Positions 33,874-39,731 of a DNA stretch of 64,000 nt are shown piece by piece. Origin of the DNA: Spiroplasma endosymbiont of Aspidapion aeneum (GTDB lineage Bacteria; Bacillota_I; Bacilli_A; Mycoplasmatales; Mycoplasmataceae); assembly GCF_964031045.1 (NCBI RefSeq), contig NZ_OZ034994.1:682001-746000 (forward strand). The letters run 5' to 3'. Within the stretch, counting starts at the first letter, position 1, and each line of letters opens with the position of its first letter. The translations under genes were made by a program, and so were the position numbers. Below the pieces are notes generated by a model, which worked only from the letters and a program-made list of their open reading frames with translations, made no database searches and was not told the DNA's origin.

Positions 33874-34587
33874 TTAGGTTTTAAATATGCTATTAGAATC
33901 AAATTCAAATATTTCCTTAAATTTATTTTCAATTTTTAATAAATCATTTTTATCAACATCAAATTCTTCTTTTATCATTCCGTCTTTTAAAAAACATACC
34001 CGATTACAAACTGCTGCAACTTCTTGAAAAATATGAGAGCAAATTAAAATTGTTTTATTCATTTTTTTATTTAAGTTCAATAACAGTTCATTAAACCTTA
34101 ATTGCATCAATGGGTCTAACCCAGATGTTGGTTCATCTAAAATAATATATTCAGGGTCATGAATTAACGCTGCGATAATTGCTATTTTTTGTTTGTTTCC
34201 TTTTGATAGTTTTTTAATCTTTACATCAAGATCAACTTCAAAGAATTTTACTAAATTATCAAAAAAGTCTTTATTTATAAAGTTTTTTGTTTGTTCAACA
34301 AACTTAAAATAACCTCGCCCGGTCATTTTTTCATAAATTGCAATTTCACCAGAAACATATCCAACTTTATCCATAATAATTTTTGAATTATCTCAAGTAT
34401 TAACACCATCAATCATTACTTCACCACTATCAGGTTTTATAAATCCCATTATCATTCTAATCAACGTTGTTTTTCCAGCACCATTTGGGCCAATTATCCC
34501 ATATATTTGACCTTTTTTAATATTTATATTGATATTAAAAGCGCCTTTTTTATGTCCATAATCTTTTGTAATATCTTTTATAACCAT
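33874..34587 (-). CDS. ABC transporter ATP-binding protein of the modified-peptide locus
   Basis: 237 aa. Walker A GPNGAGKTT, signature LSKGNKQK, Walker B YIILDEPTSGLDP, H-loop ICSHIFQE: ABC-2 type exporter ATPase. It is the last gene of the operon peptide - ThiF-like enzyme - permease - ATPase and starts 18 bases after the permease stop, with GGGG before the ATG. Likely powers export of, or immunity to, the modified peptide. Confidence 0.9.
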
Positions 34588-34605: not shown

Positions 34606-35529
34606 CTAAATATTAAAATCAATTTTTTTAAATTTTTTTAAATCAATAAAAAAGACAAAACAAGCAAGACAAGACCCAAATATAATAAATAATCACCCTT
34701 GTAAATAGTTATGTTTAGGATTAACTTTATTTATCATATAAATATTTTTTTCAGGATCTGGTATTCAAATATTTGTTTTCTTTGTATCAAATTGATTTCC
34801 AGCCAAGTTAAATATATCAATATAGTAGAACATTTTTGAAACAAAACCATCAACACTGTTATATTTAATAACATTATCTGCAATGAAAACTCCAATCATG
34901 GCAAGTGTTATTGCAAAAAATATAAAATTTACAGTCTTAATATATTCAAATAAATATAAATACACTAGCGCATATAAAGATGTTAATAATAATACAAATA
35001 TAATAAATGAAACTAATTGTGTTAAATAATTAAGATAATCTGTTGAATCAATTGCTTCATTTTTAAAGATAAATATAAAAGATGTTAATAAAATTGGTGA
35101 CAAAATTATTATTATTTCAATATATATACTTAATAATTTACTAAGAAATAATTTCTGTCTTGAAATTGGTGTTGTTAGTCATATTGTAATTTTTTTTGAA
35201 TAGGCTTCTAATAAAAAATGAATTGTAAACGCTAACATAAAATAAAATAAAACATATACAATAATTGGTCCAGATAATAAAAAATAAATCATATTATTAA
35301 TACCAATGTAATGTTGAGGATTACCACCTATCGACCCATTCTTATGATAATAAATATCTAAATAATACATTTTAGAAAAAACACTATCATCCTTATCTGT
35401 AGCATAAACAAATGATGATACTTGTCCAGCAAAAGCTACTGACATTATAAAAAAAACTAATAAAATTATCCAATCTTTTTTTAAAGACTTATTTAATATC
35501 ACAAATGTCTTGTTTTTTAACTTAAACAT
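34606..35529 (-). CDS. ABC-2 type permease of the modified-peptide locus
   Basis: 307 aa, six membrane segments. The first extracytoplasmic loop (about residues 40-85) is large and aromatic. The coupling loop KKITIWLTTPISRQKLFLSKL is the typical ABC-2 pattern of basic residues, Thr-Pro-hydroxyl and R-x-K. It lies 58 bases downstream of the ThiF-like gene and next to its ATPase. Substrate inferred from context. Confidence 0.8.
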
Positions 35530-35587: not shown

Positions 35588-36709
35588 TTAATTGTCATTA
35601 TTTTCAATATTACCCATTAATTTAAAAAAACTTAATAAATTATTATCCGTTATGTTATTATCACCACAAGTAGGACAATTTTTTTGTTTGTATCATTCTG
35701 TCACTTTTGTAAAACTAAGTGTATCAAAATCTAATCTTGTAATTCAATTATTAAATTTACCATCTTGTAATAAAATAATTCATTTTTGAATTATAATAGA
35801 ACACAATAAGCTTATAGTATATGATGTTGCTGAGGTTTGAGGCACAAAGTTTGAATTTTTTAAAGCTAAAATAAAGTTATATCACTTTTCATCAACTGTT
35901 CCAACAAATAGGCAATCAACGCACCCTGATTTAGCGGGGTCCATAAAAAAATATCTGCCATTATTTTTTTGGCAAAAGGAGAACAAAACTGGCTTATTGG
36001 CAATATAGCAGGCCTTGTTCACAATTCTTTGCATTTTATAAGGAGGGTCATCTGCGCAAGAAAAAACTCAATCCACATCATTTACATACTTTTGAATATC
36101 ACTTACACTCTCAATATTACATTTTAATTTTCTGATTCTTCCTTTAGAATTTTTATTTAAAAAATAATCTTCAGCAACATCAATTTTGTCACGTGAGACT
36201 TCCTTTTCACCTCACAAAACTTGTCTAGATATATTTGATAAATCCACTTTGTCAAAATCTATAACAGTTATATTCTCAACTCCCAATGACACCAAATGTG
36301 ATAGTATTGTAAATCCACCACCACCAACTCCAATAATTAAAACTGAAATTTTATTTAATTTATTTTGAAAATCAATACCATTAATTTTATCAGAATTAAA
36401 GTAAAAAATATTTGATCGATACCTTTCAAATCATTTTTCATTAGTAAACTTTTTATCTAAAACTAATAAAAATCCTTTATCCTTTAATTTATTGATCCCA
36501 TCAATAAAAAAATGTATTTCTGCATTTTTAATCCCAATATTATTAGCAATTTTATTAGCATCATTATAGCCATCAAATAGTGTTAAGGCTTTTCTTCAAT
36601 ACCCATTTTCATCATCCAGATAATAAATGTTGTTATCATCTGTACCAATTCTAAGCACTTTCTCATTAATCATAAAATAATTTATAGATTTATTCCATAG
36701 AGGATACAT
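35588..36709 (-). CDS. E1-like ThiF/MccB-family adenylyltransferase with N-terminal peptide-recognition-like domain
   Basis: 373 aa. Residues 1-105 look like a PqqD-type RiPP recognition element: a beta-hairpin start, LTLFDGYNDANKIANNIG, then helices and KLKDKGFLLV. From about 125 comes the E1 nucleotide site IIGVGGGGFTILSHL, IDFDKVDLSNISRQ (Asp, Asn and Arg-Gln of ATP and Mg binding), DDPPYKMQRIVNKAC, and two zinc CxxC pairs (GCVDC and NCPTCGD). This is the architecture of MccB, which adenylates the microcin C peptide. MoeB or ThiF for cofactor sulfur is less likely because no such pathway gene is nearby and a peptide gene precedes it. Its ribosome binding site is weak; the peptide gene's is strong. 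Confidence 0.8.
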
Positions 36710-36840: not shown

Positions 36841-36867
36841 AAAAACTGGATTTCTCCAATTTTTTTG
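36841..36867 (-). terminator. Hairpin attenuator between peptide and ThiF-like gene
   Basis: On the minus strand a stem AAAAATTGGA with TCCAGTTTTT closes on a GAAA tetraloop and runs into a U tract. It lies directly after the peptide stop codon, so most transcripts would stop there and a minority continue to the enzyme and transporter. The same arrangement is known in the microcin C operon. Confidence 0.75.
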
Positions 36868-36875
36868 ATTTTATA

Positions 36876-36944
36876 TTAAATAAAATATCAATTTCCATCT
36901 AAAATAGATGATTCATTTACTTCAACTAAAACTAATTCTTTCAT
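36876..36944 (-). CDS. Putative precursor peptide (22 aa) of a modified-peptide locus
   Basis: ATG 36944 follows a near-perfect AAGGAGGAT with an 8-base gap, far stronger than most sites in this window. The peptide begins MKELVLVEV and ends SSILDGNWYFI when UGA is read as Trp. Codon 19 is UGA and follows a Gly-Asn pair, so a stop there would give an 18-mer ending in Asn, the residue MccB-type enzymes modify. A terminator-like hairpin and the ThiF-like gene follow. No other role for such a strongly signalled short frame is apparent, though a regulatory leader peptide is possible. Confidence 0.65.
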
Positions 36945-36965
36945 AGAAATATCCTCCTTAATAAA

Positions 36966-37860: not shown

Positions 37861-38658
37861 ATGAATCTAAAGAAAATACACCATTTATCATTAGCACAAG
37901 CAAATCCTTTAGAATATTTTAAACGATCAAATCTATTAGAAGAAGAATTACTTTTTGATGAAGAATTTTTATATAGAGTATCTAATACTAGATTTTTTGT
38001 TCCTTTAAAGAAAATGTCATATAAAGAAATTTCAGGTTCAACAGGAGAGGCAATACCTCTGTTATTGTTCAAACCCGACTTTACACCATTTTTTACATTT
38101 TATAGTACAATAACAAAGGCTTTTAATATTGTTAAAACTGAAGGAGTTGGGTCAAATGATTATTTTTCTGACCTACTATATCGTGATATGTGTGCTCTTG
38201 ACATTATTAATCTCTTAGAAGATAATGATATAAGAGAAGCGGATATCGATGCAGATAAATGAACTGTTTCACCTCTTCACCTAAAAAAACCTAGAGCAAA
38301 AAGTTGAAAAAGTGCATTAACAAGTATAAAATATAAAATCTCACAAGAAGAGAAAACAGTTGATGCTAAAATAGATGATACTCTAGAACAAGCTATCACA
38401 ATTATTAAATCAAAAAAATTTATTACAAACATTTACTTAGAACAGATAGAAATAAGTAAATTCAAAAAATATAAATTTTATTTATCATCAGTAGAAGACC
38501 CATATATACTTTTTAATGAGTATGCAATATTATTAGAGACAATAAATGATTTGTTTAATAATGATATATTCATAGAGTTTATTTGTATATTTGAAAAAGA
38601 TATAAAAAATTTAGTTTTTGATAATGTATTACAAGTTAGTGCAGCAATAAAAAATTAA
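37861..38658 (+). CDS. Unknown cytoplasmic protein downstream of azoR
   Basis: 265 aa, no membrane segment, no recognised domain. The N-terminal half is mixed (SNTRFFVPLKKMSYKEISG), the C-terminal half helical and lysine-rich. UGA Trp codons occur at two or three positions. AAAAGGAT precedes the ATG and a strong terminator overlaps its end. Co-transcription with azoR is its only functional hint. Confidence 0.7.
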
Positions 38659-38765: not shown

Positions 38766-39731
38766 TTATCTTTTTTTAATATTTTTTACTGTCATCTTAT
38801 TGTTATTAGAATTTTTATTTTTAACATGACATTTAACACATATAGAATTGTCAATATTTAGGTCTCACATCTGGTCAATTGTAAAATATTCCTCACAAAT
38901 AATACAACGCCTAATTTCTTTATCTTTATACTTTTTGAGTGCTAACTGATAGTTTAATTGATTTGTTTGATATGCATTTTTTTCACGAATTAAACGAGCA
39001 ACATCATTCTCAGTTGAATTCATCCAGATATTATCTCTAATTTTTTTTGGGCTAACACCATCCTTTAGCGCTTCATAGATTAATCTCATCATGTTAGCAG
39101 AATATTCGCTCGCAAGATATAATTGATATTCAATTCTATCTAGCATTCCATCTAAAATAACATCTAATTGCTTTTCATTATATCCCTCTAAGTTAATGTC
39201 TATGAATATATCAAAATCTTTTCTCTGTAAAAAACAAGCCTTTACCACACAATCAAATGAAAATCGATTGTCTAATAAATAACAAAGCCTTTTAATATGA
39301 TTTTCTCTAATTAATGATTCATTAATTGCTGATTGTGAATATGCAATTTTCTTTCATATTTTTGGGTCATTATAATCAGTTTTTTTTGTATCTTCCAATT
39401 CACGTAAATAAGATGTTAGTGTTTTAACAGATTCAACAAGGCCGATAGATTCATTCTTTTTTATTAAATCATTAATTTTTCAATTAACTAAATGACAAAT
39501 TAACTCATACATTCTTTTCAAGAAATTACTATCATTTGTTTCGTGGGCAAATAATGAAACTCAAGATAGAGGGTAATTTCTTAAAAGACAATTTTTTAAT
39601 CACTCCATCTGGTCTTTATTGAAATATGGACAAGCAACAAGAGAAATAGATTCCTTCGAAAGCCCCAATTCTAAACCACTACTTATTTTTATTAATTGCT
39701 CTGGATCAAACTCTAAAACATCATATTTCAT
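38766..39731 (-). CDS. Unknown protein with C-terminal zinc ribbon
   Basis: 321 aa, helical throughout. The C-terminus has CIICEEYF and, about 25 residues later, CVKCHVK, two CxxC pairs that would bind zinc, followed by a basic tail that could touch nucleic acid. The middle contains LIYEALKDGVSPKKIRDNIW. No family recognised. It begins a group of three minus-strand genes with the two small membrane proteins upstream. Confidence 0.7.

Follow-up and report, generated by a model that had tools for sequence, protein, structure and literature searches.

A UGA-encoded tryptophan in the NWYFI end of a putative indolylamide-type precursor peptide from a Spiroplasma endosymbiont

In the genome of the Spiroplasma endosymbiont of Aspidapion aeneum we identified a gene cluster that is probably a minimal RiPP system of the IndA/IndF (NWYFI) type, consisting of a precursor peptide, a ThiF-like enzyme with a predicted N-terminal RRE-like region and an ABC exporter. 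If the chemistry follows that published for IndF, the tryptophan encoded by an in-frame UGA at codon 19 of the precursor would attack the activated C-terminal residue, Ile22. This reading draws on how the genes are ordered, on a peptide end that is exactly NWYFI, on the conservation of this end, again with UGA, in a second genus, on the kinship of the enzyme and on the genetic code of the host. Unless another locus is named, coordinates refer to the window, that is, the whole 64,000-nucleotide stretch of DNA analyzed (positions 682001-746000 of the 1.21 Mb genome). The features of the cluster are as follows.

36953-36959, minus strand: Shine-Dalgarno sequence AAGGAGG upstream of the precursor ATG (36944), from the sequence.
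36876-36944, minus strand: precursor peptide gene, 22 aa, MKELVLVEVNESSILDGNWYFI, stop codon TAA; from the sequence, with start and end echoed by the G162 relative MKELKLNKIIKTAKEDVVVNWYFV.
36888-36890, minus strand: codon 19, TGA, read as Trp (code evidence); putative nucleophile (indole N1), by analogy with IndA W6.
36879-36893, minus strand: NWYFI core motif, Asn18-Ile22, the same five residues as at the end of the IndA core and in the published 'NWYFI group'; the Ile22 carboxylate is the putative adenylation site.
36841-36864, minus strand: stem-loop with a U-rich stretch after it, located between the precursor and enzyme genes, possibly a partial terminator (-9.5 kcal/mol, z -2.06).
35588-36709, minus strand: ThiF/E1-like adenylyltransferase, 373 aa (PF00899, 3e-38).
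34606-35529, minus strand: membrane protein, 307 aa, probable ABC-2 type permease judging by its appearance and position (unmatched in Pfam and NCBIfam).
33874-34587, minus strand: ABC transporter ATP-binding protein, 237 aa, downstream of the enzyme gene on the same strand.

Read from 36944 to 36876 on the minus strand, the precursor gene is ATG AAA GAA TTA GTT TTA GTT GAA GTA AAT GAA TCA TCT ATT TTA GAT GGA AAT TGA TAT TTT ATT TAA, which translates as MKELVLVEVNESSILDGN-UGA-YFI-TAA. Codons 17-19 (36896-36888) are GGA AAT TGA, followed by TAT TTT ATT TAA, just as the initial annotation of this DNA had described them. That annotation expected UGA to mean Trp and set against this an 18-residue peptide ending in Asn. 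According to the part of PMC4014445 available, UGA is read as Trp where release factor RF2 is missing. A search of the endosymbiont genome with the RF2 model returned one match of 277 bits, below the cut-off of 370; this match is RF1 (484 bits, above the RF1 cut-off), and RF1 alone was found. A tRNA with the anticodon UCA, labeled SeC by an ARAGORN run with the bacterial code, adjoins tRNA-Trp(CCA). Among 47 window ORFs that do not overlap and are at least 150 aa long, 172 TGA codons were counted versus 28 TGG, with at least one TGA in 42 of the 47 and eight in the enzyme gene. UGA at codon 19 therefore most likely encodes ordinary tryptophan, as had been expected, and the Asn-ending 18-mer is not to be expected. 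Gene callers using the standard code would trim the precursor to 18 residues and break the enzyme at its eight UGA codons.

The end of the peptide is conserved. At a threshold of E<=1e-8, relatives of the window enzyme were found in six of 320 genomes of the order: the endosymbiont itself, a member of the same family but of another genus (G162) and four weaker cases. The G162 enzyme (46% identity, residues 1-365) is the sole close relative among the 320 genomes. Its gene is preceded by an ORF, ATG...AAT TGA TAT TTT GTA TAA (MKELKLNKIIKTAKEDVVVNWYFV), again with UGA. Both peptides start with MKEL and share NWYF before a branched last residue (I/V), so the ORF just upstream of the G162 enzyme supports both the start and the end of the window peptide. 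The Gly-Asn pair before UGA, singled out initially, survives only in part: Asn is kept and Gly is replaced by Val, and after UGA the residues YF are identical, followed by I or V. Homologues that keep the three codons after UGA and lose Asn had been named as the outcome that would count against a role for this Asn; in the two mollicutes Asn is kept as well. In a more distant precursor with a WWIII end, Trp and the C-terminal Ile stay in register while the position of Asn is taken by Trp. Given this register and the Asn kept in both mollicutes, Asn18 is a part of the published NWYFI motif and not a C-terminus.

We estimated how often such an end arises by chance. The pattern AAYTGRTAYTTYRTNTAR has 72 matches in the 320 genomes, and approximately 5e-5 matches are expected per 400 nt of one strand (calculated from 73 matches in an estimated 290 Mb). 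Because so few are expected there, the N-UGA-YF[IV] end upstream of the G162 enzyme is not a chance occurrence. Orphan NWYF[IV] peptides elsewhere were rejected as chance matches: none of the 52 matches whose surroundings were checked lies near an E1 relative (best E 2.3), and in most of them a start codon is lacking. The window and G162 are the two mollicute examples of an NWYF[IV] precursor with its enzyme. Between its precursor and enzyme genes, G162 likewise carries a stem-loop (L003 1430-1500; -11.9 kcal/mol, z -2.44); stricter consensus terminator scans listed neither this one nor that of the window. The G162 precursor gene begins about 100 bases past an apparent 5S rRNA gene, identified by eye, that closes an rRNA operon (L003:900-1432).

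The closest precedent is the ind cluster of S. pneumoniae. According to the available portion of PMC12150305, the RRE-containing ThiF-like enzyme IndF acts on IndA, which a peptidase cuts to EDTTNWYFI; the product, solved by NMR, is a macrocycle in which the indole nitrogen of Trp is acylated by the C-terminal Ile. The same portion reports that the IndA variant W6A gives no product, that the IndA peptide without its first four residues is approximately 3.2 kDa, and that Y228, K256 and T298 of IndF contact the core. The window 22-mer ends exactly as the IndA core does, its UGA19 corresponding to the reactive Trp, and since this end is identical to a core cyclized by IndF, the gene looks like a member of a recently described cyclic-peptide family. 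Both systems also place a ThiF-like enzyme with an N-terminal RRE-like region beside the precursor, include a transporter and share the Q-K-Y spacing of the enzyme. They differ in that the window Trp is written UGA, the precursor is shorter (22 aa), an ABC permease and ATPase follow and the host is a mollicute. Moreover, ind includes the M16 peptidase IndP, whereas a search of the endosymbiont genome for PF00675 gave 0 matches (the control was positive in 9 of 14 genomes), and no such peptidase is listed in the operon.

A wider 'NWYFI group' beside ThiF-like enzymes is described in the accessible part of PMC12250964, with 31 instances accompanied by a peptidase, a regulator and a transporter, and is called there exclusive to Lactobacilli, mainly streptococci. 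The window locus shares with it the motif, the enzyme superfamily and the transporter. It differs in that its motif occurs in two mollicute genera and that a peptidase and a regulator were not found in the operon. We base membership in this group on the motif, the gene order and the enzyme clade, the latter from a comparison among enzymes other than IndF; the peptidase is one group feature not found here. The locus extends the motif, as that part of PMC12250964 delimits it, to two genera of another order.

The following scheme is modeled on IndF. The leader (MKEL...) would bind the N-terminal region of the enzyme, and the enzyme would activate the C-terminal Ile22 by adenylating its carboxylate with ATP. 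UGA-encoded Trp19 would then attack the activated Ile22 through its indole nitrogen, with departure of AMP, so that a W-Y-F-I indolylamide macrocycle would form with loss of water. The conserved Asn18 would directly precede the ring, which is also its position in IndA, and would not be the activated residue. The ABC genes would export the product. The initial annotation had reasoned that a genuine 22-mer would require a target for the enzyme other than a C-terminal Asn; this branch is favored here, with the activation by IndF of the C-terminal Ile of ...NWYFI as its precedent. An apparent codon oddity is thereby turned into a concrete product prediction, a Trp-Ile cyclized mollicute peptide. 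As to its role, we lean toward a secreted signal or an antagonist against close kin.

To place the enzyme, we considered its domains, relatives and conserved residues. The putative leader-binding, RRE-like region spans residues ~1-100 and is fused to a ThiF domain (residues 111-346), with Cys pairs at 263/266 and 345/348; the enzyme gene lies next to the precursor gene. Beyond the order, the nearest full-length plasmid match is from Niallia taxi (28.6% over 97%; 30% over 376 columns), where the enzyme gene lies downstream of MKKVTVRRATKVEATTWWIII, an enterofaecin-type (WWIII) precursor. In a tree of 17 rows, the window and G162 enzymes group together (100/100), are joined by the Niallia enzyme (97/91) and stand apart from four MccB types with Asn-ending precursors; support is weak at most of the other forks (nine of 14 are open), several rows have long branches and IndF is not among the rows. 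Left out of the tree were a frameshifted second ThiF gene of the endosymbiont genome, the IS-interrupted ThiF gene of G307 and the G374, L010, Nonomuraea and Actinacidiphila matches. The N-terminal region of the window and G162 enzymes matches that of four Gram-positive ThiF-RiPP enzymes with 96.4% probability (20 column shuffles gave at most 0.7%), versus 38.5% for Niallia alone, 6.7% for three mollicute MccB-like enzymes and 0.1% for E. coli MccB.

The residues assigned to ATP/Mg binding (R162, Q163, K175 and D220) do not vary across the 17 rows. Spacing is equal between Q163-K175-Y224 of the window enzyme and Q167-K179-Y228 of IndF, and likewise between R162-K175-D220 and R167-K180-D225 of EnfB. 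Y224 and T295 are confined to the two NWYF rows of the 17, and K248 occurs in these two and in Sporosarcina. By spacing alone, the counterpart of IndF K256 is K248 or R252, and that of IndF T298 is T292, T295 or T298. The window pair together with its 46% identical relative forms a naturally minimal enzyme-precursor set for finding core-binding residues. An AlphaFold model of the enzyme, made from a four-sequence alignment, has a mean pLDDT of 48, so the structure lends the enzyme reading no support.

The grouping with the Niallia enzyme bears on an alternative second step. Following the same activation of the carboxylate, a backbone amide nitrogen might attack to give a macrocyclic imide, or a free amine might cap the C-terminus, in the manner of EnfB, which acts on WWIVI using one ATP as stated in the available part of PMC12250964. 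The window locus resembles the EnfA/EnfB and WWIII systems in its enzyme clade, the W-x-x-I end and a precursor of ~21-22 aa. However, its core is the exact NWYFI of IndA and not WWIVI or WWIII, and neither a WWI(I/V)I end nor the EnfA-type (V/I)RKA leader motif is present in the window peptide. In addition, the portion of PMC12150305 available states that enterofaecin still awaits a detailed structural analysis by NMR. We consider the EnfB-like step unlikely and retain Trp19 as the probable nucleophile. The Niallia taxi locus itself (L034:3787-8495) is on a megaplasmid and encodes, in addition to the WWIII precursor and enzyme, an HEYMH membrane protein and ABC transporters; an AgrA/AgrC-like pair lies on the opposite strand, and the region has no annotated genes.

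The neighbor of the peptide gene had been taken at the outset for an MccB-like E1 enzyme. This was borne out: it is ThiF/E1-like, and among solved structures MccB matches it best (E about 5e-24), PaaA ranking lower. The window system is like MccA/MccB of microcin C in having a ThiF-like enzyme with a leader-binding N-terminus and the universal ATP-site residues, but MccA ends in Asn and the window peptide in Ile, and the N-terminal regions of the enzymes do not match. It is likewise comparable to PaaP/PaaA of pantocin A, PaaA being a sequence match with a leader-binding N-terminus as well; however, PaaA acts on two internal Glu residues, whereas the window core has no Glu and the 22-mer contains no adjacent Glu pair.

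Mollicutes do appear to have microcin-C-like loci. In G143, G149 and G212, three of the four weaker cases of the order search, the ThiF enzyme is fused to an S66 peptidase (by Pfam in G212 and by alignment in the other two), and the upstream peptides are MPIEWSVINFN, MIPSTWAVNVFN and MPISWFNLTLN, respectively, each with one internal UGA=Trp and the end Asn-TAA. As far as can be told from sequence, these ThiF-S66 (MccF-like) fusions with precursors of 11-12 aa (L013:4043-6081, L015:5032-7060 and L007:1194-3210) are microcin-C-like and would combine making and immunity in one protein. The endosymbiont has a second ThiF gene of its own (L012:5489-6668; about 345.5-346.7 kb in its genome), which is frameshifted between the N-terminal region and the ThiF domain, has a transposase beside it and follows a 10-aa ORF, MDIIIGQMSN-TAA; this is likely a decayed microcin-C-like locus. 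A fifth mollicute ThiF-RiPP enzyme gene, in G307 (L014:4340-6172), the remaining weaker case, is interrupted by transposase genes.

These loci bear in two ways on the possibility that UGA ends translation, or that a protease cuts after Asn18, to leave an Asn-ending 18-mer for MccB-style nucleotidylation. On the one hand, four mollicute loci with microcin-C-like enzymes do have Asn-ending precursors, and no enzyme of solved structure is closer than MccB. On the other hand, all four mark the Asn end with TAA, three of them with an internal UGA=Trp, and the window peptide is built differently. The finding of RF1 only, the UCA tRNA, the excess of UGA among Trp codons and the YF[IV] kept after UGA in the relative also argue against the 18-mer, as does the mismatch with the N-terminal region of E. 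coli MccB. The tree points the same way, and microcin C was dropped as the main explanation; we regard the MccB-style product as extremely improbable. No S66 (MccF-like) protein was found among the seven neighboring window proteins scanned.

Precursors beside the other enzymes were called by eye as short ORFs with a Shine-Dalgarno-like stretch, a procedure that recovers MRTGNAN beside E. coli MccB; a stricter first pass missed the Niallia WWIII peptide. The ThiF-RiPP precursors examined end in N, C, G, R or WWIII, so chemistry varies within the superfamily. This variation, and the fact that the mollicute examples are two and known from sequence alone, might favor some other function, for example an ester at Tyr20, a peptidyl adenylate whose target is separate or a role outside RiPPs, in which case NWYFI would serve recognition only. 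The identity of the whole five-residue core to the solved case speaks against it, and we rate it as highly unlikely. The indolylamide reading remains the preferred one.

Searches at the level of order, class and phylum and of phages, plasmids and viral contigs did not reach the streptococcal ind locus or IndF. The class search found matches in 3 of 395 genomes at 1e-20, and the phylum search with alignment A3 in 3 of 245 at 1e-30, mostly repeating the same genomes, with no IndF in either. Among phages 12 records were found, none covering 80% of the query, and among plasmids 104 records, three of which cover 80%. Viral contigs gave no match with alignment A2, none with the DTTNWYFI pattern and 11 chance matches with TNWYFI.

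Within the open-access literature searched, we found no earlier report of a Spiroplasma ThiF RiPP or of a mollicute microcin C or MccB, nor one of this kind in the mollicute RiPP literature screened by title. This is thus apparently the first NWYFI-type RiPP reported in Mollicutes. A broader proposal may also be made, although we hold it doubtful as a whole. Wall-less bacteria would possess an indolylamide system whose cross-linking Trp is written as UGA, so that translation of the same gene in a standard-code host would end one residue before the ring and yield a harmless 18-mer ending in Asn. At the same time, the W-x-x-[I/V] common to NWYF[IV] and WWIII on kindred enzymes would make enterofaecin-type peptides Trp-Ile indolylamides and not backbone imides.

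Transporter genes follow the enzyme in both mollicute loci: the ABC ATPase and probable permease in the window and a 530-aa ABC exporter in G162. Two further proteins near the window cluster (37861-38658 and 38766-39731) have no Pfam or NCBIfam match. Elsewhere, two near-identical short ORFs ending in ...KNGSC lie beside a ThiF enzyme in Lactiplantibacillus plantarum (L078, upstream of 2824), short ORFs upstream of the ThiF gene in Salmonella and Pantoea (L080, L077) end in ...LVG and ...AVG, and one beside the ThiF enzyme of G369 (L074) ends in ...DQNC. These unusual ends suggest further undescribed chemistries.
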